Shown here piece after piece: positions 8,801 through 21,264 of a stretch of 25,908 bases of DNA. The stretch is from the NCBI GenBank assembly GCA_934691925.1, contig CAKUTI010000028.1:1-25908 (forward strand), in the 5' to 3' direction. How positions within the stretch are numbered: the first letter of the stretch is position 1; each line of letters starts with the position of its first letter. The position numbers and the translations under genes are program-made. The DNA is from an uncultured Treponema sp. Lineage in GTDB: Bacteria; Spirochaetota; Spirochaetia; Treponematales; Treponemataceae. The notes beneath the pieces were generated by a model. The model was not told where the DNA came from and searched no databases. It worked only from the letters and a program-made list of their open reading frames with translations.

Positions 8801-9425
8801 TGTAGCCGAGCGCTCTAAGGAAAATTGTCGCAAGGATTTTCTTTTTGCGGTCAATCTTCGCGTATATGAGATTTTTTTTCTGGTCGATTTCAAATTCAAG
8901 CCAAGAGCCACGGTAAGGAATGATTCTTGAAGAATAAACGCCCTTGTCGTGCTGGAAAATAACTCCAGGCGAACGGTGAATCTGCGAGACAACAACGCGT
9001 TCCGCGCCGTTTATGATGAATGTTCCGCGGTCTGTCATAAGCGGGATGTCGCCGAGATAAATATCCTTCTGCAAAATCGCGCCTGACTTCAAGAAATTCA
9101 GGTTGATTCTTGCCTTGAGCGGAACTGCGAAAGTCTGCCCTTTCTGCTTGCATTCAAGCTCGGAGAATTTGATGTTCTTCTCGTCAAGCTCGTAGAATTC
9201 GTACTCAAGAGACATTTCTCCATCCGCGCTTTCAATAGGGAAAGTTGATGTGAATGCTTCCTGCAAGCCCTTGTTTTCAAGCGGCTCGCCTTTGTCTAGT
9301 TTGTCTTTCTGAAGGAAATTTTCGTAAGACGATGTCTGAATGTCGATAAGATTCGGAATCTCCATGAAATTCTGAATGTTCTTACCGTAATACTGACGGT
9401 TGATTGTTCTGCTTTTCGCGAACAT
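5880..9425 (-). CDS. rpoB: DNA-directed RNA polymerase subunit beta
   Basis: Catalytic partner of RpoC and target of rifamycins. The product is 1181 residues from the ATG at 9425 ([10 protein letters not shown]), which has AGGAGG 6 nt upstream; a GTG six bases earlier would lie against the ribosome binding site. Rif cluster I is at about 474-505 ([11 protein letters not shown], then [15 protein letters not shown]). The residue equal to E. coli Ser531 is Asn499, the change associated with intrinsic rifampicin resistance in spirochaetes. Other conserved blocks are [20 protein letters not shown] and [12 protein letters not shown]. It is about the length of short beta subunits lacking the large gammaproteobacterial insertions. 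It overlaps rpoC by 11 nt and follows rplL after about 300 bp of structured spacer. Confidence 0.98.
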
Positions 9426-9727
9426 CAGCACCCTCCTGGGGAATCATTGCCCGTTCTGTTTGCTACATGCAAGGATTGCCCGCAAAACTTGCGGAAATAA
9501 AAGCACAGCACAAAGCAGCCGGACTGCGGGGAAGCTTTTTTTTTAGAAAAAAGCGAAAACTATCGGATTGCTCCGCAAAAACGCGGCAGCAACAAATTGC
9601 TACTGTAGACACGTAAAGCTTACGTGCAAAACAAAGCTGCCTTACACGTAAGCTCAACGAAAATTGATTCTAACTTATCTTAGAATTCGGATTATTTTCC
9701 AGAAAATTTCTATTCACTGGGAAATAA
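9426..9727 (-). promoter_or_regulatory. Structured rplL-rpoB spacer, attenuator-like
   Basis: No gene is visible in about 300 bp. In transcription order there are several inverted repeats: TTCTAA/TTAGAA (9668-9685), a three-arm element (9610-9654), GCAA/TTGC followed by CCGC/GCGG near 9570-9600, and CCGCAA/TTGCGG (9480-9494) about 45 nt before the rpoB ribosome binding site. In E. coli the same spacer holds a partial terminator and an RNase III site that set the ratio of L7/L12 to polymerase. A similar role is inferred from position and structure only. Confidence 0.55.
9610..9654 (-). promoter_or_regulatory. Three-arm, mutually exclusive stem element between rplL and rpoB
   Basis: In minus-strand order the arms are A (AGCTTACGTG, 9654-9645), B (CACGTAAGCT, 9626-9617) and C (TTACGTG, 9616-9610). 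A and B pair perfectly over 10 bp with an 18-nt loop. B's CACGTAA can also pair with C over 7 bp with a 3-nt loop. The two stems share arm B and cannot coexist, the layout of an attenuator or anti-attenuator. No strong T-run follows, so the output may be RNA processing or pausing. Confidence 0.5.
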
Positions 9728-10105
9728 TTATTTTTTAGAAGCCTTTCCACCAGCTGCTTCGATTTTCTTGATGATTTCATCAGCATCTGCCTTAGAAACA
9801 GCTTCCTTGAGAACTTTTGGAGCGCCTTCAACGAGAGCTTTTGCTTCTCCAAGTCCAAGACCTGTGATTTCACGAACTGCCTTGATAACTGGGATTTTTT
9901 TAGCTGCATCGAATGAATCCAAAGAAACATTGAATTCAGACTGCTCTTCAGCTGCGGCTGCACCACCAGCTGCTGGACCTGCTGCAACAGCAACAGCTGC
10001 TGTTACTCCGAATTTTTCTTCCATTGCTTTTACGAGTTCTGAAGCTTCGAGAACTGTCATAGAAGCGATTGCATCAAGAATCTGATCATTTGTGAGAGCT
10101 GCCAT
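9728..10105 (-). CDS. rplL: 50S ribosomal protein L7/L12
   Basis: L7/L12 forms the multicopy stalk that recruits translation GTPases. The 125-residue product has an N-terminal dimerisation helix (to about 35), an Ala/Gly hinge ([20 protein letters not shown]) and a C-terminal domain with the factor-binding [20 protein letters not shown] helix. The ATG has TAGGAGAAG 6-8 nt upstream. It follows rplJ after an unusually long 159-bp gap containing alternative hairpins, and precedes rpoB after about 300 bp. Confidence 0.97.
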
Positions 10106-10161
10106 ATTATCTTCTCCTAAATTGGCACGTCTGAATCATTTCGAAACAGACAAAAAAGTTT

Positions 10162-10196
10162 CTGCGGACGGAACAAACTGAACCGCTGTTCCGCAG
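10162..10196 (-). promoter_or_regulatory. Alternative hairpins in the rplJ-rplL spacer
   Basis: The minus-strand 5' segment CTGCGGAACA can pair in two exclusive ways: CTGCGGA with TCCGCAG (outer, 7 bp) or CGGAACA with TGTTCCG (inner, 7 bp). The element lies in the gap between rplJ and rplL. L7/L12 is needed at about four times the level of L10, so a stabilising or translation-boosting structure is plausible here. Function is inferred. Confidence 0.45.
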
Positions 10197-10264
10197 TTTA
10201 TATTTTTGCAAGGACAGTCGACAGCTATGAAGCCTGACCTTGCTTCACAAGCACGGCAAACTGA

Positions 10265-10810
10265 TTACTCAGCTTTTGCTTCTTCAGCTGGAGCTTCTGC
10301 TCCGCCTTCCTGTGATTTTTTATCCACATAAGCCTGCAATGTAGCGGCGAGTTTCTGAACTGGACCGTTGATAGCAGACATGAGCATTGCGATAAGCTGT
10401 TTTTTGCCAGGAACTTTTGAATAAGCTTCCATTTTCTCAGCATCGTAAATCTCGTTCTGGATATATCCGCCCTTGATTTTAAGAGCGTTGTTGTCTTTTG
10501 CGAAGTCAAAAAGAACTTTTGCTGCCTCGTTGCTGTCTTCTTTAGCCATTACAACCGCTGTAGGGCCTTTGAGATAGTCAGCAACGTTGTCGATTTTCAT
10601 CTCTTCAAATGCGACACGCGCAAAGTTGTTCTTCAAAACCTTCATTGGAGCTTCATGCTCACGAAGCTTTCTGCGCAAGCTTGTAATCTGCTCTACAGTC
10701 AAGCCGCGGAATTCAGTAAAGATGAAGTCATTGTAATCAGAAAGCGTTTTTTTAGTCGCTTCGATAGCCGCTGTCTTAGCAGGCTGGAGTGCTTTTGCTC
10801 TAATTGCCAT
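10265..10810 (-). CDS. rplJ: 50S ribosomal protein L10
   Basis: L10 anchors L7/L12 dimers to 23S rRNA at the stalk base. The 181-residue product has the family's FRGLTVEQITSLRRKLRE segment and KVLKNNFARVA block; the C-terminal helix carries the L7/L12 sites and the protein ends in an acidic Ala/Glu tail. The ATG has GGAGGAGG about 8 nt upstream, inside the end of rplA, and the gap to the rplA stop is only 3 nt. No L10-leader-type spacer fits between rplA and rplJ, so any L10 autoregulation would have to act elsewhere. Confidence 0.96.
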   Translation of the reverse strand: MAIRAKALQPAKTAAIEATKKTLSDYNDFIFTEFRGLTVEQITSLRRKLREHEAPMKVLKNNFARVAFEEMKIDNVADYLKGPTAVVMAKEDSNEAAKVLFDFAKDNNALKIKGGYIQNEIYDAEKMEAYSKVPGKKQLIAMLMSAINGPVQKLAATLQAYVDKKSQEGGAEAPAEEAKAE

Positions 10811-10813
10811 AGG

Positions 10814-11494
10814 TTATGCCTCCTCCTTAACTGAAATCCAAACACCAGGTCCCATAGACGAGCTTACTGAAACAGAGCGGATAAAGTCTGCCTTAGCGTC
10901 AACCGGCTTTTTGCGGTCAAGCTCAGCAAGGAGAGTGTTTACGTTCTCAGCAACTTTAGCAGAATCCATAGAAACTTTTCCTACAGCAATATGGATAATT
11001 CCAGTCTTGTCTGCGCGGAATTCTGTACGTCCCTTTTTAAGCTCGCTGATTGCAGAAACGATGTCATTTGTTACAGTTCCTGTCTTTGGGTTTGGCATAA
11101 GACCTTTGCGTCCCAAAACCATACCAAGACGACCAACATCTTTCATCATGTCTGGAGTTGCAACAGCAACATCAAAGTCAAGCCAGCCAGCCTTTACTTT
11201 GTCGATATACTCTTTTGAGCCAGCGTAAGCCGCGCCTGCGTCAAGAGCTTCTTTTGCTCTCTCGTCAGAACAGAACACGAGAACTTTCTTCTCAGCTGTG
11301 AACTGGTTTGGGAAAACCAATGTGTCACGAACTGTCTGGCTTTTTCCGAGGTTAAGAGCAACGTGCAGCTCTACAGTCTCGTCGAATTTTACAAAGTGCA
11401 CGTCTTTTACGATTGCGCAAGCCTTGTCAACTGGGTAGCTCTGAAGCGGATCATATTTTTTGAGAGCATCAGTATATTTCTTTCCGTGTTTCAT
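10814..11494 (-). CDS. rplA: 50S ribosomal protein L1
   Basis: L1 forms the mobile stalk near the E-site and is a classic translational repressor of its own operon. The 226-residue product has the signature region PNPKTGTVTND, then KKGRTEFRADKTGIIH, in the usual place. The start is 1 nt after the rplK stop, with GGAGG 6-7 nt upstream inside the rplK end, so the two genes are probably translationally coupled. A leader hairpin upstream of rplK (11977-12007) is a candidate L1 target. Confidence 0.97.
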   Translation of the reverse strand: MKHGKKYTDALKKYDPLQSYPVDKACAIVKDVHFVKFDETVELHVALNLGKSQTVRDTLVFPNQFTAEKKVLVFCSDERAKEALDAGAAYAGSKEYIDKVKAGWLDFDVAVATPDMMKDVGRLGMVLGRKGLMPNPKTGTVTNDIVSAISELKKGRTEFRADKTGIIHIAVGKVSMDSAKVAENVNTLLAELDRKKPVDAKADFIRSVSVSSSMGPGVWISVKEEA

Positions 11495-11495
11495 T

Positions 11496-11927
11496 TTATG
11501 CCTCCACCTCTACACCCATACTGCGGGCTGTTCCAGCAACGATTTTCTTTGCAGCTTCCAAATCGTTCGCGTTTACATCAGGAAGCTTTGTCTTTGCGAT
11601 TTCCTCAAGCTGTGCTTTTGTAAGCTTTCCAACTTTGTTAAGAAGAGGATTTCCTGAACCTTTGTCAAGCTTGAGCGCTTTCTTGATAAGCACTGCAGCT
11701 GGCGGAGTTTTGAGGATGAAAGTGAATGACTTGTCTGAATAAACTGTGATTACAGCAGGAACAACAAGCCCTTTCTCCATGCTCTTTGTGCGTTCATTGA
11801 ACTGCTGGCAGAACTGAGGCGCAGAAACACCTTTTGGTCCCAAAGCAGGTCCGATTGGCGGGGCAGGAGTAGCAGCTCCAGCTGGTGCCTGAATCTTGAA
11901 CACTTCAACAACTTTTTTTGCAGCCAT
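11496..11927 (-). CDS. rplK: 50S ribosomal protein L11
   Basis: L11 binds the GTPase-associated region of 23S rRNA and is required for stringent factor activation in many bacteria. The 143-residue product has the N-terminal [20 protein letters not shown] proline-rich motif and ends in the conserved [10 protein letters not shown]. The start has AAGGAG about 8 nt upstream. The leader is about 140 bp and carries a strong terminator hairpin and then another hairpin, so transcription into rplK looks regulated separately from nusG. Confidence 0.97.
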
Positions 11928-11976
11928 TTTAATAGCTCCTTATATTGGTATGAGACTCCAAAACGAAATCTCTAGC

Positions 11977-12007
11977 GGAACGCCTATGTCCGACGGACTT
12001 ACGCTCC
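11977..12007 (-). promoter_or_regulatory. Two-helix leader hairpin upstream of rplK, candidate L1 operator
   Basis: On the minus strand GGAGCG, TAA, GTCC, loop GTC, GGAC, ATAGG, CGTTCC: two helices separated by an asymmetric 3 x 5 internal loop. Two helices around an asymmetric loop is the general form of L1-binding sites in 23S rRNA and in rplK-rplA leaders. I could not match the conserved loop bases from memory, so the L1 assignment is tentative; the fold itself is visible. Confidence 0.4.
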
Positions 12008-12011
12008 TCCC

Positions 12012-12050
12012 AAAAAAACAAGCGATTTCTATAAATTATAAAAACCGCTT
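12012..12050 (-). terminator. Intrinsic terminator or attenuator between nusG and rplK
   Basis: On the minus strand a 31-nt element starts AAGCGG and ends TCGCTT. It forms fourteen consecutive pairs (two G-U) around a 3-nt loop and is followed by G and seven T. It begins about 20 bp after the nusG stop. In form it is a canonical terminator, yet rplK-rplA-rplJ-rplL-rpoBC lie downstream on the same strand. So it is either a partial attenuator or a boundary requiring another promoter for rplK. Confidence 0.8.
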
Positions 12051-12062
12051 CAATTTTTTCTA
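12035..12062 (-). promoter_or_regulatory. Possible rplK promoter overlapping the terminator
   Basis: A perfect TATAAT is preceded 16 bp upstream by TAGAAA on the minus strand. The -10 word sits in the AT-rich apex of the terminator hairpin, so the match may be incidental. If real, it would restart transcription for rplK and downstream genes. Confidence 0.22.
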
Positions 12063-12071
12063 AAACTAATT

Positions 12072-12635
12072 TTACTGGACAAGCTTCTCAACTTGTGTAA
12101 GATCAACTTCAACCGGTGTTGCCCGGCCAAAAATCTGAACCGTCACGCGAAGCTTAGCCTTGTCCGCATAAACTTCATCAACCGCTCCGCTGAACGAAGC
12201 GAAAGGTCCTTCGTTGATTTTAACCTGATCACCGACAGAATAAATCTGCTTGACGCGAACAGCCTTATCGCCTTTGATGTCTCCAGAACGCTGAAGAATA
12301 TTTTTAACCTGATCATTTGGAATCGGACGAGGACGCTCATTCGGTTTTGTTCCAACAAAACCGCCGACCCCCTGTGTAGAACGAATCTCCGAACAGACAT
12401 CCTTCCAGCCGATTTCAGGAAGGTCCATTTCAAGCATTATATATCCCGGAAGAATAAGATTTTTTCTTGATTTTTTCTTTCCGTCTTTAATCTCAACAAC
12501 TTCTTCGACAGGAACTTTTACATCTGAAACAATATTTGAGTCAAGAACACCTTCATCAAGTTTCTGATGAAGAATTCTTTCAATCTTCTTCTCGTATCCT
12601 ACGTAGCTCTGAACAATATACCAGCTTTTTGCCAT
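12072..12635 (-). CDS. nusG: Transcription termination/antitermination protein NusG
   Basis: NusG binds the RNA polymerase clamp and links it to Rho or ribosomal S10. The 187-residue product has the NGN domain (MAKSWYIVQSYVGYEKKIE, then LILPGYIMLEM) and a C-terminal KOW domain (VGDQVKINEGPFASFSGAVDEV region). It lacks an inserted domain II; a separate NusG-domain-II protein lies elsewhere in the window at 14622-14963. The start has AAGGG about 7 nt upstream. It follows secE by 24 nt in the standard order and is followed at once by a strong terminator hairpin. Confidence 0.97.
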   Translation of the reverse strand: MAKSWYIVQSYVGYEKKIERILHQKLDEGVLDSNIVSDVKVPVEEVVEIKDGKKKSRKNLILPGYIMLEMDLPEIGWKDVCSEIRSTQGVGGFVGTKPNERPRPIPNDQVKNILQRSGDIKGDKAVRVKQIYSVGDQVKINEGPFASFSGAVDEVYADKAKLRVTVQIFGRATPVEVDLTQVEKLVQ

Positions 12636-12659
12636 CTGCTTACCCTTATTAAAAAAAAA

Positions 12660-12839
12660 CTAGAAAGCCAAGCTCATGCCGTAGCTGAAAAGAATATCCA
12701 AGAGACCGAGAACTGCTGCAATAATGATTGTAGAAACAATTACAACTTTTACCGATGAGACAACATCATCGCGTGTAGGCCAGACAACTTTTTTAAGTTC
12801 CGCCCCGCACTCTTTAAAAAATCCAAAAATCTTTCCCAT
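12660..12839 (-). CDS. secE: Preprotein translocase subunit SecE
   Basis: SecE clamps SecY in the inner-membrane translocon. The 59-residue product has the short single-span form: an amphipathic N-terminal helix, the conserved ELKKVVWPTRDD hinge, and one membrane span (about residues 30-50). I chose the ATG at 12839 (MGKIFGFFKE), which has AGAGGA about 9 nt upstream. The longer open frame would read through the tRNA-Trp gene and is not credible. It lies between tRNA-Trp and nusG, the common bacterial arrangement. Confidence 0.95.
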   Translation of the reverse strand: MGKIFGFFKECGAELKKVVWPTRDDVVSSVKVVIVSTIIIAAVLGLLDILFSYGMSLAF

Positions 12840-12856
12840 AGCAGCAAATCCTCTAT

Positions 12857-12885
12857 AAAAAAATTGAAACAGATTTCTCTGTTTC
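12857..12885 (-). terminator. Terminator-like hairpin between tRNA-Trp and secE
   Basis: On the minus strand GAAACAG, a 6-nt loop, CTGTTTC (7 pairs), then AA and seven T. It lies between the tRNA-Trp 3' end and the secE ribosome binding site. The stem is weak (three G-C pairs), so it probably terminates only part of the transcripts and would raise tRNA output relative to secE-nusG. Confidence 0.55.
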
Positions 12886-12895
12886 GCTCTAAGTA

Positions 12896-12968
12896 CAGGC
12901 CCGGCAAGACTCGAACTCGCGACACTCGGTTTTGGAGACCGATGCTCTACCAACTGAACTACAGGCCT
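12896..12968 (-). tRNA. tRNA-Trp (CCA anticodon)
   Basis: Folds as a full 73-nt cloverleaf: acceptor AGGCCTG/CGGGCCT (one G-U), D stem GTTC/GAGC, anticodon stem TCGGT/ACCGA with loop CTCCAAA, and T arm GCGAG-TTCGAGT-CTTGC. The anticodon CCA reads UGG. The discriminator base is G and no 3' CCA is encoded, so it must be added enzymatically. It lies in the spacer between rpmG and secE, as in many bacteria. Confidence 0.96.
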
Positions 12969-13014
12969 AAAAATCTATATCAAGCTGCCACATTCAAGCG
13001 GCAGCCTAACCAGC

Positions 13015-13191
13015 TTATTTTGCTTTTGTTTCTTTATGCAAAATTTCCTTGCGACAGAATGGACAATACTTGTTTTTTTCAAGTTTTCCCTGAATATTTT
13101 TGCGGTTTTTTGTTGTTGTGTAATTCTTTCTCTTACACTCTGTGCACTGAAGAGCAATAATATCGATTGATGTCTTCTTCTTGCTACCCAT
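13015..13191 (-). CDS. rpmG: 50S ribosomal protein L33, zinc-binding form
   Basis: Small 58-residue ribosomal protein of the 50S subunit. The sequence begins [20 protein letters not shown] and has CTEC (Cys16, Cys19) and CPFC (Cys43, Cys46), the four-cysteine zinc ribbon of the C+ L33 form; zinc-free paralogues lack these. The conserved NYTTTKNR segment is present. The start has AGGAG about 9 nt upstream. It sits between tRNA-Thr and tRNA-Trp. A 6-bp hairpin (GCTGCC/GGCAGC, 12984-13005) follows the stop and may help release the tRNA. Confidence 0.96.
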
Positions 13192-13227
13192 TTTTATATT
13201 CTCCTAAAATAATTTTAAATTTCTAGC

Positions 13228-13300
13228 AGCTCCCGAACGGAATTGAACCGTTGACCTCAGCACTACCAATGCTGTGCTCTACCAACTGAGCTACAAGAGC
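13228..13300 (-). tRNA. tRNA-Thr (GGT anticodon)
   Basis: A 73-nt cloverleaf: acceptor GCTCTTG/CGGGAGC (two G-U), D arm GCTC/GAGC, anticodon stem CAGCA/TGCTG with loop TTGGTAG, and T arm AACGG-TTCAATT-CCGTT. The anticodon GGT reads ACC and ACU. The discriminator base is T and CCA is not encoded. It is the first transcribed element of the unit, about 18 bp below the predicted start of transcription. Confidence 0.96.
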
Positions 13301-13324
13301 AAGTCAGTTCTGACGTGTCCTAAC

Positions 13325-13353
13325 AATATACAGACTGGCAGATTTTGTGTCAA
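13325..13353 (-). promoter_or_regulatory. Strong sigma-70-type promoter of the tRNA-Thr/rpmG/secE/nusG unit
   Basis: On the minus strand a perfect TTGACA, a 17-bp spacer, then TATATT (5 of 6). Initiation is expected near 13318, just upstream of tRNA-Thr. The -35 box lies within a perfect inverted repeat (13345-13364). Confidence 0.85.
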
Positions 13354-13364
13354 GGGAGACACAA
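13345..13364. promoter_or_regulatory. Palindrome overlapping the -35 box, possible operator
   Basis: TTGTGTC, a 6-bp spacer AAGGGA, then GACACAA: perfect 7-bp arms. One arm covers most of the TTGACA -35 box of the minus-strand promoter. A dimeric regulator bound here would compete with polymerase. It is also about 100 bp upstream of cysE on the other strand. The regulator is unknown. Confidence 0.45.
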
Positions 13365-13463
13365 TCAAAAAGATGTCTTATTCTAGTATTTTCCACGTTT
13401 TTATGCTAGTTTTTTACAAAAGATTTTTAAACTTTTTTTGATTTTTTTATTTCGAGGAAAACA

Positions 13464-14315
13464 ATGAACATAGACGGACTTGTGGACAACATCTTAAAAT
13501 CTTACGAGACAGACGGCGGAATCAACAGAGCCGGCGCGGAGAACTTTCCGAACAGGGAAAACGTGGTCGCGGTTCTCCATGAAATTCAGTGTCTGATTTT
13601 TCCGGGCTACAAGACAAACGAGGAAGTCGATGACGACAACCTTCGCTACACGACCGGCCAGCGCGTGAACAAAATAATCTGCGTTCTCACAAAGGAAATT
13701 CAAAAAGCGATTGTCTACGAGACAAGCCGAAACAATCCGGAATCAAATTTCAGCTGCGGACACTGTTTTGAGGAAGCGGAAGGAATTTCGCTCGCTTTGA
13801 TTGAAGAAATTCCTGAAATCAGGCGGCTCGTGCGGCTGGACACAATCGCGGCCTACAATGGAGATCCGGCGGCAAAAAGCGGAGACGAAGTTATCGTCTC
13901 TTATCCGGGACTTGAAGCTATAATCGTCTACAGAATCGCGCATTTTCTTCATTTAAAGAACGTGCCTGTAATTCCAAGAATAATGAGCGAGTACGTCCAC
14001 GGAAAAACCGGAATCGACATTCATCCGGGCGCGACAATCGGCGAAAGCTTCTTTATTGACCACGGAACAGGCGTTGTAGTCGGCGAGACAACAATAATCG
14101 GCGACAACGTGAAAATTTATCAGGGAGTGACGCTCGGAGCGTTGAGCGTGAAAAAGTCCCTCCAGAACAAAAAACGCCACCCGACAATCGAAGACAACGT
14201 TACAATCTACGCGAATGCGACAATTCTCGGCGGAGAAACCGTAATCGGAAAAGGCTCGGTAATCGGCGGAAACAGCTGGATAACAGAATCAGTTTCAAAC
14301 GGAAAAAAGAATTAG
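13464..14315 (+). CDS. cysE: Serine O-acetyltransferase
   Basis: Transfers acetyl from acetyl-CoA to L-serine, the first step of cysteine synthesis, in the cytoplasm. The 283-residue product has an N-terminal helical domain (to about 170) and a C-terminal left-handed beta helix of hexapeptide repeats. The family's catalytic pair is visible: Asp185 in DIHPGATIG and His200 in [11 protein letters not shown], aligning with E. coli Asp143 and His158. The start has GAGGA 6 nt upstream. It is divergent from the tRNA-Thr promoter. No cysK is adjacent. I see no plus-strand terminator after it; the hairpin there is oriented for the opposite strand. It could also be labelled EpsC-like. Confidence 0.92.
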
Positions 14316-14317
14316 AC

Positions 14318-14362
14318 AAAAAAAACAGCGTTTCGAGTAAGTAACACTTCCAAGAAACGCTG
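14318..14362 (-). terminator. Intrinsic terminator of the candidate small RNA
   Basis: On the minus strand CAGCGTTTC, a 19-nt loop, GAAACGCTG (9 perfect pairs), then eight T. The loop contains an inner AAGT/ACTT mini-stem. On the plus strand the hairpin is followed by CCGTCC, so it is not a terminator for cysE. No annotated minus-strand gene lies upstream, so the small RNA is its only evident client. Confidence 0.8.
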
Positions 14363-14415
14363 CCGTCCAGCAAGCTGGACATCGGAGAGAGTTTATCAGC
14401 TTATTACAAGCTGGT
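14318..14415 (-). ncRNA. Candidate small RNA with exposed CUCUCUCC motif
   Basis: A self-contained unit on the strand opposite cysE: promoter at 14420-14449, about 95 nt of RNA, intrinsic terminator. Structure in order: stem CAGCTT/AAGCTG with a 5-nt loop (14413-14397); an unpaired linker containing CTCTCTCC (14391-14384); stem GTCCAG/CTGGAC with a CTTG loop (14380-14365); terminator stem CAGCGTTTC/GAAACGCTG then eight T. The linker is complementary to GGAGAGAG-type Shine-Dalgarno sequences, as in C-rich antisense small RNAs of other bacteria. I recognise no known RNA family. The frame starting at 14382 has no ribosome binding site, so a coding role is unlikely. Transcription is unproven. Confidence 0.68.
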
Positions 14416-14419
14416 TAAT

Positions 14420-14449
14420 AAGATAGCTTATGAGATAATGTTTTGTCAA
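14420..14449 (-). promoter_or_regulatory. Promoter of the candidate small RNA
   Basis: On the minus strand a perfect TTGACA, an 18-bp spacer, then TATCTT (4 of 6). Initiation is expected near 14412-14416, at the start of the first hairpin, so almost the whole transcript is structured. Confidence 0.65.
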
Positions 14450-14621
14450 TAATCTTTCCTATAAGAAATCTCTAAATTCTCCAATCGATGAAATCTTGCC
14501 GAATTTGCCATTTTTTTAGAATATATCTGATGAAGAATTTTCCGCGGATTTTTCTGATTTTTTTCAATTAAAATCTAAAATCGGATGAAATTTGCGGCAA
14601 TCTTTGGGAAGTTTGCAGATT

Positions 14622-14963
14622 ATGAAGAATATTTTTAAGCCATTTGACTTTCTGTTTATTTTAGCCTCGCTTTCGGCGGTCGTCTTTTCATTTTTGACTT
14701 TGCGGAACAAAAATTCTGAAAAGGAAGCGCGTCTGATAATCGACGGCGGAGGAAAAGAATTCGTTTATCCTCTGAGCGAAAATCTGGAGCTTAATATTGA
14801 AGGCGACATCGGAATTTCTGTAATCAAAATCGAGGACGGAAAAGCCTTTTTTGAGGACTCGCCCTGCCCGAACAAACTTTGCGTGGAAATGGCTCCAGTC
14901 AGGGAAAATAACGACTGGGCAGCCTGCATGCCGAACGAAGTCTTCATAAGAGTTGAAAAATAA
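14622..14963 (+). CDS. Membrane-anchored NusG domain II family protein
   Basis: A 113-residue protein with one N-terminal membrane span (about residues 8-27), then a small beta-rich domain facing away from the cytoplasm. The C-terminal half (ISVIKIEDGKAFFEDSPCPN, KLC, then WAACMPNEVFIRVE) matches the NusG domain II family, found either as an insertion in some NusG proteins or alone in Firmicutes, Thermotogae and spirochaetes. Cys82, 87 and 102 are conserved-type cysteines. Its function is unknown; it is not a transcription factor by this evidence. I chose the ATG at 14622, which puts the span at the start; an upstream TTG at 14592 is less likely. The ribosome binding site is weak. radA follows after 96 bp with no evident gene between. 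Confidence 0.75.
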   Translation: MKNIFKPFDFLFILASLSAVVFSFLTLRNKNSEKEARLIIDGGGKEFVYPLSENLELNIEGDIGISVIKIEDGKAFFEDSPCPNKLCVEMAPVRENNDWAACMPNEVFIRVEK

Positions 14964-15059
14964 ATTCTAAAAGGGGCGCGGCGCGAAGATTTTCCATCTA
15001 AAAAAAATGTGATTTTTTGCCTAAAAACGCGTCAAAACTTTTATTCACAAGGAGATTTT

Positions 15060-16412
15060 ATGGCGAAATCAAAGAATTCGATTGTCTACAAATGCACAGA
15101 ATGTGGATATTCACAGCCGAAATGGCTTGGCCGCTGCCCTTCATGCGGAGCGTGGAACACGCTCGAGGAAGCAATTCTCGACCCGAACTCAAACGCGGCG
15201 GCTTTCGGAAACGCTGCGACGGAAAAAATAAAGCCTGTTCCGCTTGCAAAGGTGAGCGCGCAGGAAAACACAAGAATCACAACGGGAATAGAAGAATTTG
15301 ACAGGGTTTTAGGCGGCGGAGCAATGATTCGCTCGGCGATTCTGATTGGCGGAGAGCCTGGAATCGGAAAATCGACGCTGATGATTCAAGTTTCAAGCGC
15401 GATTCACAAGAATTTTAAACAGAAAATTCTTTACGTTTCAGGAGAAGAAAGCGCAGCCCAAATTAAAAACCGCGCTGACCGGCTAAATCTTGACACAGAC
15501 GGAATCGAAATCCTATGCACAATGCGGCTTGAAGACATAAAAGACGCGCTTTCCGCGCTGAATCCAGTGTTTGTCGTGATTGACTCGATTCAGACAGTTT
15601 ACTCGGTTGAGGCGGGAATTGTTCCGGGAACGATGAACCAGCTGAAATTCTGCGCGAACGAGCTGATTGGCTGGGCAAAAAGCCGTGACGCAGTTCTCGT
15701 GATGTCGGCGCACGTCACAAAAGAAGGCTCGATTGCAGGCCCGAAAAGCCTTGAACATATGGTTGACACAGTTGTCTCTTTTGAAAGGAACGATGACGAA
15801 GTCCGATTCTTGCGCGCGATAAAAAACCGTTTCGGCTCGGTTGACGAGCTTGGAATTTTCGCGATGACAGAAAAAGGACTTGAAGGCGTCGGAGACCCAA
15901 GCTCCATGTTCATCACAAAGCGGAACGGCGCAACTCCTGCCGGAATCGCAAATTCCTGCGTTTTTGAGGGAAGCAGGGCGTTTCTGGTGGAAATTCAGGC
16001 GCTCACAGTTCCGGCAAAATCGAGCATAAGCCGGGTTTACTCGGAAAAAATCGATGCGGGCCGAGTCGCGCGGGTGGCAGCGGTTCTTGAAAAACGAACT
16101 AGAATGAAATTCAGCGACCAGGACATTTACGTGAACGTGGCCGGCGGAGTCCGCTTGTCTGAAAGCGCGATTGACGCGGCTCTGGCGGCGGCTCTTTACT
16201 CGGCAAGGACAGACATCGCGGTTACAGACGAGACAGTCATAATCGGAGAATTAAGTCTCGCAGGCGAAATCCGTCCGGTCGCAAGGCTAAAGCAGCGGGT
16301 AAAAACCGCAAAGGAGCTCGGATTCAGCAACATTTTCGCCCCGGAAAGCGAGACAGGAGCAAAAAAAATCTCTTCAATAAAAGAGCTTGTAAAAACGACT
16401 TTCGGAAAATAA
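15060..16412 (+). CDS. radA: DNA repair protein RadA
   Basis: RadA is a RecA-like ATPase and branch-migration helicase that processes recombination intermediates. The 450-residue product has a four-cysteine zinc finger (Cys12, 15, 26, 29), Walker A GGEPGIGKST (97-106), a Walker B strand (VFVVIDSIQT, about 170-179), the RadA-specific KNRFG motif (255-259) and a C-terminal Lon-protease-like domain that lacks the catalytic function. The ATG at 15060 has AAGGAG 5 nt upstream; the upstream GTG has none. Length is usual. It lies downstream of the NusG-domain-II gene and is convergent with the TraB-family gene; the 176-bp gap between them has no clear terminator. Confidence 0.97.
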   Translation: MAKSKNSIVYKCTECGYSQPKWLGRCPSCGAWNTLEEAILDPNSNAAAFGNAATEKIKPVPLAKVSAQENTRITTGIEEFDRVLGGGAMIRSAILIGGEPGIGKSTLMIQVSSAIHKNFKQKILYVSGEESAAQIKNRADRLNLDTDGIEILCTMRLEDIKDALSALNPVFVVIDSIQTVYSVEAGIVPGTMNQLKFCANELIGWAKSRDAVLVMSAHVTKEGSIAGPKSLEHMVDTVVSFERNDDEVRFLRAIKNRFGSVDELGIFAMTEKGLEGVGDPSSMFITKRNGATPAGIANSCVFEGSRAFLVEIQALTVPAKSSISRVYSEKIDAGRVARVAAVLEKRTRMKFSDQDIYVNVAGGVRLSESAIDAALAAALYSARTDIAVTDETVIIGELSLAGEIRPVARLKQRVKTAKELGFSNIFAPESETGAKKISSIKELVKTTFGK

Positions 16413-16588
16413 AAATCAAGAAGATTTCTGTCAAAATGAACGCATGAAGCTCGAAACGCAAACGGGACGCTCTGGCAAAAAACAGAATCTTCTTGAAAAG
16501 CGGGAACGGCGCGATTCCCAAATCTGAAAATCGCAATTACATTCTAGATTCTTGCAAAAAAAATCTTAATCCGCTTTTATTTTATCGT

Positions 16589-17794
16589 TTACTTCGCAAA
16601 AAGATTTTTGAAGAAAGACGCGACGCTCACAACGATTGTGCTTCCGCCGATAAAAGTTCCGACGCTCGAGCCAAGCGAGCTTAAGAAAAACACGAGAAGA
16701 ACGCGCAAGAGCCGGTTTCTGTAGAATCCTTTCACACTGATGTCGTTCTGAACATTCTCCAAATCCTTGACTTTCGGCTTGCAGACAACCGCCTGAACAA
16801 TTCCGGCGAACATTCCGACTCCGACAAACGGACAAAGGCTCGTGAACGGCGCGCCAACTGCGGAAACCAAAATTGTAAGCAGATGGCCTCCAGCTAAAAG
16901 CGCGCCAGCTGCGGCAAGCCCTGCATTCCAGAAAACCCACGAGCCGACGAGATTCAAGCCCTTCGTCATTCCACCGTAGACAAAGCCCGCCGCAATCAAA
17001 GCGAGAATCAAAACTGGAATCGACCATCCTGCAATTTTCGAGCCGGCTTTTTTTTCAGGAAGACGGCTGATTTCTTCCGTGTCGCAAGATTTTTTTCCAG
17101 CCGAAATTTCCTCAAGATTTTTCTGAACGCCCGGAAGATGACCAGCACCAAGAACCGCCACAACGCTTTTTCTCGGGCCTTTCTGAACGGCTTTCCAGAT
17201 GTGCGCCGCAAGATAAAAATCGCGCTCGTCAATAAGAACTTTTTTGACGGCAGGCATATAGTCGGAAAGCTCTGACATCATTCCGTCCATCTCGCTTTTT
17301 TCTTTTAGATTTTCAATCTCTTTCTCGCCGACTTCTTCCTTGTCAAACGCGCTCGCAATAAGCGCGCTCAAAAGTTTTATCTTTCCGATTCCAGAATTCA
17401 TTCCCCAGGCGCGGCGGAGCGTCGTCTGAATCGGGCGGTCAACCATCTCGCACGGAATTCCAAGAGATTTCGCGGTCTCAATTCCAGCCCTCATCTCGTC
17501 TCCCGGCTTGACTCCGACATTTGCGCCCATTTTCCGCTGGAAATTCGCCATAACAAGATTCGCAAGGAGCAAAAACCCCTTTTTCTCTTTCAGGACTTTT
17601 ATTATGTCAAGATTTTTCCAGCCGTCGCGGTCGTTCAACGAAGCGTAACGCTGCTCATCAAGCTCAATCGCAACGCAGTCAGGCTTTTTCCCGCTGATTA
17701 CCGTCTTCACTTCCTCGCAGCTTTCACGGGAAACGTGCGCCGTTCCAAGCAAGACAATATTTTTATCATTTAAAGTAAGATTTATTTGCGCCAT
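16589..17794 (-). CDS. TraB/PrgY family membrane protein
   Basis: A 401-residue protein with an N-terminal TraB domain and a C-terminal membrane region. The domain shows GTAHVS (17-22), AIELDEQRY (42-50) and GAGHLPG (216-222), the conserved motifs of the TraB/PrgY/Tiki group, whose metal-dependent hydrolase fold degrades or sequesters peptides. PrgY inactivates a pheromone in Enterococcus. Four to five hydrophobic spans lie at about 257-275, 285-312, 318-337 and 361-395. The ATG at 17794 has AAGGA about 8 nt upstream; the longer frame adds a Lys-rich stretch without a site. It is convergent with radA and downstream of the TPR gene on the same strand. A peptidase role here is inferred from the family. 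Confidence 0.85.
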   Translation of the reverse strand: MAQINLTLNDKNIVLLGTAHVSRESCEEVKTVISGKKPDCVAIELDEQRYASLNDRDGWKNLDIIKVLKEKKGFLLLANLVMANFQRKMGANVGVKPGDEMRAGIETAKSLGIPCEMVDRPIQTTLRRAWGMNSGIGKIKLLSALIASAFDKEEVGEKEIENLKEKSEMDGMMSELSDYMPAVKKVLIDERDFYLAAHIWKAVQKGPRKSVVAVLGAGHLPGVQKNLEEISAGKKSCDTEEISRLPEKKAGSKIAGWSIPVLILALIAAGFVYGGMTKGLNLVGSWVFWNAGLAAAGALLAGGHLLTILVSAVGAPFTSLCPFVGVGMFAGIVQAVVCKPKVKDLENVQNDISVKGFYRNRLLRVLLVFFLSSLGSSVGTFIGGSTIVVSVASFFKNLFAK

Positions 17795-17958
17795 ATTTTT
17801 TCCTTTTTTTGCATTTCGTTTTTTAAAATGAAACAAAAACGCGATTTTCAGACAAATTGGATAAATCGGATAAAATCACGAGAATTTTTCAAGACCGCGA
17901 TTTTTCCAAAATTCCGAAAAAATTTCAAAATGATTTTTATTCTTCAATCCAAAAAATT

Positions 17959-19299
17959 CTATTTCAAAGTTTTCCATTGAGCCAATCTTGACTCAAAGAA
18001 CATAGCGCCCTGCATTTCCGCGACTGTGTTGTAATATTTCATCGCAAGGCTGTCGTTTCCTTTTATCTCCCAGTACAAGCCAAGGTAGAAAGTGTATTTT
18101 CCTTTTTTGTTCCGGCTTTTCTCCTCGTTGACTTTCATCGTCACAGAAGAGTCTCCTCCGAGTTCCGAGAACATTCTCACAAAAAGATAGTCAAGAGAAT
18201 TTCTGTCCATATTCTTCATAACCGTAGCGGCGTATTTTTTAGCGTCCTGAAACTTCTTGTCTTTCTCAAATCCCGCAATGACCATGAGCGCGTAAGAAAC
18301 GTTGTCAGGCATCGCTTCTCTCGCCTTCATAAAATACGAGCGCGACTCTTCCCAGTTTTGCTTGTCCCAAGCCAACATTCCAAGCGACTCGTAAGCGTAA
18401 TAATATTTCGGATTTTTCTCGATAACTTTCTTGTAGTAGTTGTAAGCCTCTTCACGGTTGTTCTGCTCGTCATAAAGACCTGCAAGATAAGCGTATCCAA
18501 GAAAATATTCCGGGTCTTTCTGAACCGCGATTTTCCAGTATTTTTCAGCGTCATCGTATTTTCCGATGTATCGGCTGTAATTTCCCAAGTCAAAATAATG
18601 GTCGGCGTTGTCCGGGTCTGCCTCAATCGCCTTGCTAACATATTCAATCGCCTTTTTGTACTGATGGCTTTCCGCCGCCATTTTTCCAAGATAAGCCAGC
18701 GGCTGAGGATTTGAAGGATTCATCTTCAGGAGACGGTTGAAAATATTTTTCGCCTCGTCATCCTTTTCCATATAATAGCACATCTTTCCGTAGCCGAACA
18801 AAGCCTCCTCATTTTCAGGCTCAGACATAACGGCCTTTCTGTAATAGTCGCGCGCGTTCCTGTAGCTGTGCTTAAGCTCCTGCTCGCTTGCAAGCTCTAT
18901 GTTCGCCGCCGCGTTGTTCGGCTCAACCGCAAGAATCTGCTTGATGAACTGGGATTTTTTCGCACTGTTTCCGCGTTCTTTCGCAATCGTGAAATTCAAA
19001 GTGAGAATGTCGATATTTTTCGGGTCGCGGGAAAGCAAGTCCGCGGCAAGCTTTTCAGCTTCCGCGCCTCGTCCGGCAGAAACCAGAAGCGAAGCCTTCA
19101 AGGAAAGCAAATCCGTGCTTTCAGCTTTTTCAGGCGGAAGAGAATCAAAAAGCGAAAGAGCGTCGTTCAAAGAACCTTTTTCAAGCGCGTCGCTAAGCTG
19201 CCGCACAAAATTCGCGTTGTCAAACTGATTCTGCGCAAAAACCGCCGCGCCAAAAATCAAAACAACCGCCGCAAAAACATTTTTCATCCTGCTTCTCAT
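17959..19299 (-). CDS. Exported TPR-repeat protein
   Basis: A 446-residue protein with an N-terminal signal sequence (hydrophobic MKNVFAAVVLIFGAAVFAQN region, likely cleaved near Ala-Gln) and about eight tetratricopeptide repeats over residues 60-345, recognisable by repeated Y..LG......Y..A..Y...A....P units such as HYFDLGNYSRYIGKYDDAEK. TPR arrays are protein-binding scaffolds, so this is probably a periplasmic adaptor; the partner is unknown. The signal has no lipobox Cys. I chose the ATG at 19299, with AGGA 7 nt upstream; the internal ATG four codons later is possible. It is divergent from the gene at 19348 across 48 bp, which suggests shared control and possibly shared function. Confidence 0.8.
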   Translation of the reverse strand: MRSRMKNVFAAVVLIFGAAVFAQNQFDNANFVRQLSDALEKGSLNDALSLFDSLPPEKAESTDLLSLKASLLVSAGRGAEAEKLAADLLSRDPKNIDILTLNFTIAKERGNSAKKSQFIKQILAVEPNNAAANIELASEQELKHSYRNARDYYRKAVMSEPENEEALFGYGKMCYYMEKDDEAKNIFNRLLKMNPSNPQPLAYLGKMAAESHQYKKAIEYVSKAIEADPDNADHYFDLGNYSRYIGKYDDAEKYWKIAVQKDPEYFLGYAYLAGLYDEQNNREEAYNYYKKVIEKNPKYYYAYESLGMLAWDKQNWEESRSYFMKAREAMPDNVSYALMVIAGFEKDKKFQDAKKYAATVMKNMDRNSLDYLFVRMFSELGGDSSVTMKVNEEKSRNKKGKYTFYLGLYWEIKGNDSLAMKYYNTVAEMQGAMFFESRLAQWKTLK

Positions 19300-19331
19300 T
19301 ATTAAATCCTATTTTCTATTTTTTCACGCTT

Positions 19332-19340
19332 TGGTAAAAT
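19332..19340 (+). promoter_or_regulatory. Extended -10 promoter giving a near-leaderless mRNA
   Basis: TGGTAAAAT is an extended -10 element (TGnTAAAAT) whose last base is 7 bp before the ATG at 19348. No good -35 box is seen. Transcription would start at or within a few bases of the start codon, which fits the lack of a ribosome binding site there. Confidence 0.35.
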
Positions 19341-19347
19341 CAGCGTT

Positions 19348-21264
19348 ATGTCAAAATCTCCAGTCAGAAAGACAATCGGTCTTGTAGCTCTCTACTCCAT
19401 TATTATTATCGGAATATTTGTTCTTCAATTTAGAAACGAATCTGTATTATCCAAGAATACGGGATTGCTTTCAATCTCTCTTGCACAGTCCCAGGCCGAA
19501 GACGGAACGACATCTTTAAAGAACACTCTCGCCGTAAATTTCAAGGGAATCTCATTTTTTTCCGATGAAGTCCATCCGGCTTATGTAAACTACAACGGAA
19601 AAAATTCCGCGCTTATTCTTGAATCTTACGAGCAGCCGACAAATCTCTCATACAAATTCAACTTTTCTGACGACACTTCGCTTACATTCGCGGTAAGCGA
19701 TGCAACCTCGGACGCGGAGCTTTCAATTTCAGCCTCGCTTCCAAAAGACGCGACAGGGCTCTCTCTTTACTACAAGCCTGCGGCAGGATTTTCTGTTACA
19801 GACAAGACAAGGACAAAGCTCCAGCTCAACTCAAAAAATCTCTCGTACATTTTCACAGCGGCGCAGATTTCAGACGAGGAGATAACTTTCACGCCAAGAA
19901 ACACGCTCGCGTACTACAATATTTACGACCCGACAATCGCGTTCTCGTTCGCGTCAATCGAATCTGACATAGCGATTTCGCAAAAATCGACTTACGACGA
20001 GAATATAAGACAGTTCAAGAACAATCTTGTCTCTTCTGTGGCGGACGCAATCCAAAATTCTCAGAGCCTCTCGGAAAAAACTTACATTGCTTACGTTGCG
20101 GAGCTTGCCTCGCGCGGCCGTTTTGCGGAAGCTGTAAAATACGTTCCTGACTCTTTCAAGAGAGGAAGCCAGCGAACTTATCTTTCCGCGCCTTATTTCA
20201 ACAACTTGCAGGCGATGTATCCGAGCCTTGCGATGCACAACGACAATATGTCGAACATGATTTCAAACGCGATTTCGTCAAAGTCGCTCAGCATTTTCAC
20301 GGCGGAAAATCTTGCGGAATACATAAACATTCTCTCAGACGCGCAAAAAGTCAATAATCTTCTTTCTATTCCTCAGCAGATTCTCTCTCAGGAAGAAAAC
20401 AGAACGACGGCAGAACCAGCGATGACGCTTTCGCAGGCGGTGGGAATCCTAAATGTCTACGTTAAGCTTTCGCTTCTTCATTCAAGCGCGGCGGAAATTC
20501 TCTCGTCTGCAATCGAAAAATGCCTTGAAGTCATTCAGGAATCCTGCGTTTTAAACGACTCGACTCTCACTTTGCACGACAAAGACTCGCTCGCCACAGC
20601 CCAGCTTTCGCTTGAAACTGGAAACGCGCTTCTCCAGCTCGGAGAATTCAACTCTTCAGACGACTACAAACGCGCGGGCTACGCCTTAATAAACACCGTT
20701 CTTTCAGGAACTCAGCTCGACGCGAACGCTCTCGGAAACGCCTACCCTGTCCTTGTGAGCAATCCGGCTTATCCTCATTACGCAGTTCTCCAAAGAACCG
20801 CCTCAAAAACAATCTGGGCTTGGACTTGCGCGCAAAACATCGGCTACGCGACGAGCGCAAACGCAAATTCCGCGACAATCTCGGTCAAATTTGACAAGGG
20901 AGAATCGCACTACGTGATTTTCAGCGGAATTCCGTCTTTCACAGAAATCGAAATCTACGGACTTTCATACCATTCCGACCCGCGTTTTGAAAGCTACAAC
21001 TCGTCAGGATTCATCTACCGCGAAAGCACAAGCACGCTTTTCTTAAAGTCAAGGCAAAAATCGGAGACAGAAACAATCCGGCTCACATTCGGAAGAAACG
21101 CTCCGAGACCAGCCCAGACAACGAGAAGCGCAGCTGCGCAGACGCAAAATGCGCAAAATTCAGACTCTGCGAATGCAACAACAAATTCGGCCGCGGAAAA
21201 TTCTGGAAACGCAGAAAACGCTGCGGCGCAAAACGTTTCATCAGAGTCGCAGAGCGCGCAGTAA
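19348..21264 (+). CDS. Membrane-anchored envelope protein of unknown function
   Basis: A 638-residue protein I do not recognise. It has one N-terminal hydrophobic segment (about 9-28, KTIGLVALYSIIIIGIFVLQ) that acts as an anchor or uncleaved signal, followed by a beta-rich region (about 50-225), a helical middle (about 225-470) and another beta-rich part. It ends in a low-complexity Ala/Asn/Gln/Ser tail of about 50 residues. Most of it is probably periplasmic. There is no clear ribosome binding site before the ATG; the start is supported by the promoter-like word just upstream and by the position of the hydrophobic segment. It is divergent from the exported TPR gene and precedes the MGH1-like hydrolase by 99 bp. 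It is probably spirochaete-specific; I cannot assign a function. Confidence 0.7.
   Translation: MSKSPVRKTIGLVALYSIIIIGIFVLQFRNESVLSKNTGLLSISLAQSQAEDGTTSLKNTLAVNFKGISFFSDEVHPAYVNYNGKNSALILESYEQPTNLSYKFNFSDDTSLTFAVSDATSDAELSISASLPKDATGLSLYYKPAAGFSVTDKTRTKLQLNSKNLSYIFTAAQISDEEITFTPRNTLAYYNIYDPTIAFSFASIESDIAISQKSTYDENIRQFKNNLVSSVADAIQNSQSLSEKTYIAYVAELASRGRFAEAVKYVPDSFKRGSQRTYLSAPYFNNLQAMYPSLAMHNDNMSNMISNAISSKSLSIFTAENLAEYINILSDAQKVNNLLSIPQQILSQEENRTTAEPAMTLSQAVGILNVYVKLSLLHSSAAEILSSAIEKCLEVIQESCVLNDSTLTLHDKDSLATAQLSLETGNALLQLGEFNSSDDYKRAGYALINTVLSGTQLDANALGNAYPVLVSNPAYPHYAVLQRTASKTIWAWTCAQNIGYATSANANSATISVKFDKGESHYVIFSGIPSFTEIEIYGLSYHSDPRFESYNSSGFIYRESTSTLFLKSRQKSETETIRLTFGRNAPRPAQTTRSAAAQTQNAQNSDSANATTNSAAENSGNAENAAAQNVSSESQSAQ

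Follow-up and report, generated by a model that had tools for sequence, protein, structure and literature searches.

A conserved small RNA of the Treponema family with a constant, exposed linker and complementary sites in phages

Members of the Treponema family carry a small RNA gene of about 96 nt with one linker that is predicted to stay unpaired and whose core is constant in every copy read. We describe it from the window, the whole stretch of 25,908 nt of Treponema DNA that was analyzed. We regard it as nearly certain that the gene encodes a real, family-wide small RNA. This RNA has no Rfam match, has a defined seed and belongs to bacteria in which Hfq was not found.

We propose that the RNA is a trans-acting sRNA, expressed from a stand-alone gene and base pairing through its linker seed, which we consider probable. 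Three stem-loops, the last of them the terminator, would hold one linker open, with AAACUCUCUCC as the seed. In mRNA leaders the linker would pair with GGAGAGAGUUU-like sequences located at a ribosome-binding site or a short way before it. Such pairing would change translation or stability, and would do so without Hfq. Gene anatomy, strand, secondary structure, the invariance and exposure of the seed and the complementary sites in phages are supported by sequence comparison. Transcription, pairing in cells, the host mRNAs bound and the choice between repression and activation are steps that we infer from it.

The gene and its parts

The gene consists of the following parts, all on the minus strand:

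14444..14449, minus strand: -35 element TTGACA, from the sequence and a promoter scan
14420..14425, minus strand: -10 element TATCTT, with an 18-nt spacer to the -35 element in the window
14318..14413, minus strand: small RNA gene, about 96 nt, its start placed from the -10 box and homologs
14398..14412, minus strand: hairpin 1 (AGCUU/AAGCU), almost invariant in near relatives, with other paired sequences in divergent copies
14381..14396, minus strand: unpaired linker AUAAACUCUCUCCGAU, the proposed seed, whose complement is found between phage genes
14394-14384, minus strand: invariant core AAACUCUCUCC within the linker, present in 44/44 sequences of alignment A5
14391-14384, minus strand: exposed stretch CUCUCUCC, predicted to be unpaired
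14365..14380, minus strand: hairpin 2 (GUCCAG/CUGGAC), with compensatory change in 6/6 pairs
14326..14362, minus strand: terminator stem with a small inner hairpin, with compensatory change in 9/9 outer and 4/4 inner pairs
14318..14325, minus strand: T8 tail, an intrinsic terminator, read from the sequence

An earlier note on this DNA had proposed a complete, stand-alone small RNA gene on the minus strand. Promoter, 96-nt fold, T8 tail, family-wide conservation and covariation all bear this out. The note was mistaken, however, in placing the gene opposite cysE. cysE occupies 13464-14315, and the RNA gene lies just past its stop codon; 2 nt separate this codon from the T tail, and the two genes converge. 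The note had put no protein gene on the minus strand here, and among the listed open reading frames none of at least 80 aa lies there over 14318-14449.

The RNA folds stably (z = -4.25), and none of 200 shuffled sequences is equally stable. The C/U-rich tract that the note had called exposed is exposed by prediction: the mean unpaired probability of CUCUCUCC in the window RNA is 0.975, a value reached by 2 of 300 sequences with shuffled flanks, and the tract is under extreme constraint among relatives. The inner terminator loop of the window RNA and of many homologs keeps a G-U-U motif (GUGUUAC / GCGUUGC), possibly a second contact.

The near-consensus promoter, TTGACA-18-TATCTT, reads as the note gave it and matches the consensus at 10 of 12 positions. 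A scan of 8000-20000 returned 27 promoter-like sites against 14.1 expected by chance, one of them with 11/12. Since such sites are common in window DNA, the promoter alone does not prove a gene; conservation does. Another promoter-like sequence, TTGACA-17-TATATT, lies at 13325-13353 (minus strand), directly before the stretch of tRNA-Thr, tRNA-Trp, secE and nusG.

Conservation of structure, strand and promoter

The structure was assessed in three alignments. A2, a MAFFT alignment of 13 sequences that was not fitted to the model, supports one structure: 99.0% of cells are paired, and 13 of the 24 pairs have changed on both sides. On four of five measures none of 500 shuffles did as well; on the fifth, a count of further pair types, 131/500 did. 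The other two alignments are model-fitted and thus lean towards the model. In the first (51 matches, 43 distinct sequences) 99.7% of cells pair and 18/24 pairs covary. In the second, which holds 44 distinct sequences including divergent ones, 98.5% of 993 cells are paired, compensatory change is seen in 22/24 pairs, 237 cells have changed on both sides, and 0/500 shuffles do as well on any of the five measures. Slid controls in this alignment are 32-46% paired.

The 44-sequence alignment also fixes the strand, because its G-U cells (46) outnumber its A-C cells (5). A promoter matching the consensus at 9/12 positions or better lies upstream in 44/44 aligned sequences, the window included, compared to 17% of shuffled sequences. 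The spacer is 17 nt long in 40 of the 44, and the promoter is kept in every one although the gene neighbors vary. Could promoter, hairpins and terminator nonetheless have come together by chance, with no gene at all? Promoter-like sites are indeed common in the window. Yet covariation, family-wide conservation and the controls contradict a chance origin, and we give it practically no credence.

Distribution in the Treponema family

The note had recognized no known RNA family, and Rfam 15 agrees: two tRNAs are the only matches in the window, and the sRNA gene has no match at gathering score. At E≤10 the region 14250-14520 gives three weak, unrelated matches and nothing else.

A protein scan with cysE led to 80 loci. 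The same RNA element adjoins cysE in many Treponema loci; in one arrangement it follows cysE and is on the opposite strand, in the other it precedes cysE and shares its strand. A covariance model (R1) was run first on 16 genomes and then on 274 family genomes (E≤0.01). It matched in 13 of the 16, one of these matches, in G005, being terminator-like and without the seed. In the family set it matched in 194/274 genomes, with two or more matches in 36 (counted by hand from the match table, E≤0.01). The window itself scores 109.4 bits (E 2.6e-19), being part of the model seed. A covariance search of relatives had been suggested in the earlier note for stems and linker, and both turn out to be conserved.

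Every match in the phylum and control searches fell inside the Treponema family. Among 392 genomes of the phylum 56 match, all within the family set. A second model, R2, matches 58 at E≤0.05, again all within the family set; among these, the G263 match (0.04) has no seed where it was read. The 32 genomes reached from more distant cysE loci gave a single match, in a Treponema MAG (G022) belonging to the family set as well. Genomes with a species name and a match include those of T. ruminis, T. berlinense, T. parvum and a MAG labeled T. brennaborense, whereas T. saccharophilum (G005) has no such RNA by model and seed reading. Of the 80 genomes in which R1 had no match, 77 were also searched with R2 (G271-G273 left out), which added G255, read as L309. 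Individual copies were read for part of the model and pattern matches, among the matches listed.

Where copies were read, the exact seed is missing from the weak model matches in G005, G035, G045, G048, G049, G053, G056 and G263 and from weak extra matches in G254 and G112; a further weak match lies in G270. G046 (1.1 Mb) matches neither the 19-mer AAGCTGATAAACTCTCTCC nor R2. For a family or phylum genome, absence of the RNA may be a gap, as genome completeness is not given. Short matches occur in 27 plasmid records, none covering 80%.

A constant linker between changing hairpins

In near relatives hairpin 1 and the linker are both almost unchanging. Hence near relatives alone cannot tell them apart. 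In divergent copies hairpin 1 takes other forms (AGATTG/CAATCT, AGTCAC/GTGACT, AACCA/TGGTT, GACCGC/GCGGTC, GCCAC/GTGGC). Hairpin 2 and the terminator are also replaced, or hairpin 2 is lost, and AAACTCTCTCC is kept. The short variants L095 (1501-1570), L294 and L319 have no hairpin 2; hairpin 1, seed and terminator are present, a minimal form of the RNA. The unpaired AAACUCUCUCC is kept in every copy read. The models used to find divergent copies contain the seed, however, so that copies with a mutated seed are harder to detect and its invariance may be overestimated.

The 19-mer is present within 2 mismatches in 187 of the 194 model-positive genomes. This number is the 188 pattern-positive genomes less G019, which has a 2-mismatch match and no model match (genome lists were compared by handle). 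Reading the remaining seven (G028, G164, G195, G220, G247, G250, G254) showed AAACTCTCTCC in each, despite a different hairpin 1 or 2. The reversed 19-mer, as a control, matches 4/274 genomes. Over 43 sequences each position of CUCUCUCC has a mean unpaired probability of at least 0.915. With one exposed, constant seed amid replaced hairpins, the RNA looks like a base-pairing sRNA. Translation of a small peptide starting at AUGUCC is unlikely, since L017, L285 and L288 lack the AUG.

Position relative to cysE

Genomic context was read at 43 model-found loci among L081-L124 that hold the core; these are mostly top-scoring loci and so a biased sample. cysE lies beside the RNA in 29 of the 43, which is what one would expect if the RNA were a cis-acting leader, attenuator or antisense RNA of cysE. 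However, in 26 of the 29 loci cysE is on the opposite strand, and the remaining 14/43 have no cysE in the DNA examined. The RNA is found on either side of cysE and does not overlap it in the window. Copies unlinked to cysE already contradict a cis-acting role, which we consider very improbable. Four copies away from cysE (L096, L107, L112, L113) follow a homologous lipoprotein-like gene with SCATLQQD near its start.

Targets in host genomes

Several ribosome-binding sites in the window (rpsG, rpsL, rplL, tuf) had been pointed out in the note as containing GGAGA, complementary to part of the linker. GGAGA does precede rpsG, rpsL and rplL (and also radA), but it is common; in T. ruminis AGGAGA alone precedes 177 of 2271 crude gene starts. 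Targeting of rpsG, rpsL and rplL through GGAGA is not supported, with a match of 5 nt and duplexes of -8.0 to -8.5 kcal/mol. Hence the idea of ribosomal-protein targets has no support. The region before rplL in the window is 10106-10264; a Treponema structured RNA, HMP2_2105, has been listed upstream of L7/L12 (PMC8040213).

Target prediction with the linker, also proposed in the note, brought out no host target in T. ruminis (2.8 of 2.9 Mb searched). GGAGAGAG occurs at 41 sites in this genome and precedes 1/2271 starts, rank 171/256 among GGAGNNNN words. Against a third of the 2271 start regions the linker gives a mean of -7.52, compared to -7.04 ± 0.54 for 40 shuffled linkers, and it reaches -12 or below in 42 start regions, where shuffled linkers do so in 29 on average and in 80 at most. 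The start regions therefore pair with the linker no better than with shuffled linkers. For this reason the two top duplexes (-17.8 and -17.6 kcal/mol), at what we take to be cobS-like and hemW-like genes, were rejected. Apart from the RNA gene itself, the longest chromosomal complements in T. ruminis are 14 nt, about chance.

Across 118 genomes the pattern GGAGAGAGTTN{0,10}ATG occurs in 49; it gives 64 rows, compared to 33 when the pattern is reversed as a control. Twenty GGAGAGAGTT...ATG sites were fetched. They front different genes or very short frames, and no gene recurs among them except for one pair, the same site in two near-identical genomes. GGAGAGAGTTTATC followed by GGAG is found in one of 205 host genomes (G151:C52:15130-15156, minus strand). 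Short, imperfect pairing with host mRNAs, or few host targets, is possible. The Hfq profile PF17209 matches 0/16 family genomes (8 with the RNA, 8 without) and 5/14 control genomes. Absence of Hfq is reported for Borrelia burgdorferi (PMC11607428).

A constant partner would explain a constant seed, and rRNA is constant. Close to its 5' end, 16S rRNA contains GAGAGUUU, to which AAACUCUC is complementary, and T. ruminis has ATGGAGAGTTTGATCC at this end, giving 8 nt plus one G-U pair (G001:C1 ~703238). The RNA could then act in rRNA maturation. The best duplex in the 16S region lies elsewhere, however, and 43% of 300 shuffled linkers do as well. Pairing with rRNA also leaves the UCC end of the seed unexplained, and the phage sites described below match better. 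We see a slim chance for it at most.

Complementary sites in phages

Complements of the linker were found between phage genes. Viral contig L321 holds the 19-mer three times (9376-9394, 9915-9933, 11204-11222), and at each site it is the strand of the neighboring genes that could pair with the sRNA. By eye, these sites show no promoter or terminator of the sRNA type. Four terminase relatives were found without using the site. Three of them (L328, L329, L330) carry GGAGAGAGTTTATC between genes, L329 with an additional one-mismatch site, while L331 has no site in the DNA examined; about 0.0006 exact matches are expected by chance in the 77.9 kb of these four relatives. Scanning the viral collection with GGAGAGAGTTTATCN{5,25}AAGGAG returned five contigs: these three, L321 and L336. 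L336 has a different terminase family and no protein similarity to the other four in the DNA examined. It shares 41 bp with L329 at 95% identity, 20 of these positions being fixed by the search pattern.

The five contigs, from two terminase lineages, hold eight sites, seven exact and one with a mismatch. Each of the eight starts 8-15 nt past a stop codon that closes an ORF of 67-162 aa on the same strand. In 7/8 an ATG with AAGGAG ahead of it follows 34-45 nt downstream; the first L321 site has no close ATG. Five of these seven ATGs open ORFs of 46-137 aa, and two open just 7-codon frames. These two, MRMPQAP and MYWPTAP (L321 11247-11270 and the second L329 site), are of similar make and are perhaps leader peptides. 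Other possible frames, of 115 and 68 codons, also run across the L328 and L336 sites. A stop-to-stop frame measure gives 24-153 for the eight real sites and so does not by itself separate them from the 15 rejected loci described below, whereas neighboring ORFs do.

The linker duplex reaches -24.4 to -24.9 kcal/mol at the six exact sites folded and -18.0 at the mismatched site; for comparison, the best among 2271 T. ruminis start regions is -17.8 kcal/mol. Of the seven sites folded, four have a hairpin that separates the complement from the ribosome-binding site, with three different stems among them. These phage sites are candidate partners of the sRNA.

One of 195 family genomes (G102) has a related terminase, at 38% identity, with the neighboring portal gene. 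This suggests a Treponema host for the phages without proving it; known phages give equally distant relatives (37%). Annotated phage records contain just one 19-nt match, in an Enterococcus phage, and among 28 loci of the L336 terminase lineage the site is in L336's own contig only. Loci L365-L368 look by eye like coding or chance sites and were set aside. The complement of the AAAA linker variant and a looser pattern gave 15 new loci in viral contigs (excluding L321, L333 and L334, which are contigs already known); their sites lie inside frames of 73-994 codons, no cassette was seen, and they too were rejected.

Might the linker be a protein site instead? The C/U-rich linker would then be bound by an RNA-binding protein, the stems would just present it, and the RNA would act as a protein-binding or decoy RNA. 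Candidate binders are proteins of the KH or cold-shock type, and also Rho, with its preference for YC steps. The family-wide constancy of the seed, which exceeds that usual for mRNA-pairing seeds, speaks for a protein site, as does the lack of a host target in our searches. But a protein site does not predict that phages carry the complement of the unpaired linker rather than the tract. We consider a protein site unlikely, though it is the alternative that we take most seriously.

Discussion

The features of a trans-encoded, base-pairing sRNA are found in this RNA to different degrees. Its own promoter (44/44) and an intrinsic terminator with a covarying stem are present, as is a conserved unpaired seed. 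Complementary sites are present in phages; conserved host targets were not found in the genomes searched. The trans-acting regulator that the note had envisaged gains complements of its linker between genes, but these lie in phages.

The RNA could be a node between Treponema and its phages. We treat an antagonistic or exploitative link as a serious possibility, although one we stop short of favoring. If it were true, the phages would carry a portable cassette, made of the linker complement, often a hairpin, and then a ribosome-binding site. Up to three cassettes per contig would dock the host sRNA. The phage would either soak up the RNA or use it as a switch for its own genes. Phage pressure would also help to hold the seed constant while the rest of the RNA drifts.

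Among the matches listed in the open literature, no title or abstract opening describes a Treponema sRNA. According to a review, Spirochaetes have 6 annotated sRNAs, and sRNAs have not been examined in a set of species, T. pallidum among them (PMC9029176).

The Treponema RNA differs from RoxS/RsaE of Firmicutes in sequence, structure and lineage. In RoxS/RsaE, C-rich single-stranded regions pair with ribosome-binding sites and are conserved across the lineage. Rfam holds an LhrC model and an RsaE model, and the window RNA has no Rfam match to the LhrC or the RoxS/RsaE family.

AbcR1 of rhizobia resembles the Treponema RNA in having an anti-Shine-Dalgarno region and in addressing several mRNAs (PMC6234868). 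It belongs to another lineage and its targets are known, whereas no host target was found for the Treponema RNA. The two also differ in sequence.

AgvB, a phage-encoded anti-sRNA of E. coli (PMC4104026), offers a likeness on the phage side. It is reportedly a phage RNA complementary to a host sRNA. The Treponema sRNA has its complement in the gaps between phage genes, and a search of 16 family genomes turned up no Hfq. AgvB, in contrast, is reportedly a separate small RNA studied with Hfq.

LhrC of Listeria is alike in several ways: an exposed CU-rich motif is predicted to block the Shine-Dalgarno sequence, several copies occur per genome, and target binding does not need Hfq (PMC4132741). CU-rich motifs number three in LhrC, redundant with one another and spread over two loops and a linker (PMC4132741). 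The Treponema RNA, from another phylum, has instead one constant ACUCUCUCC in one linker, as judged by eye in the window RNA.
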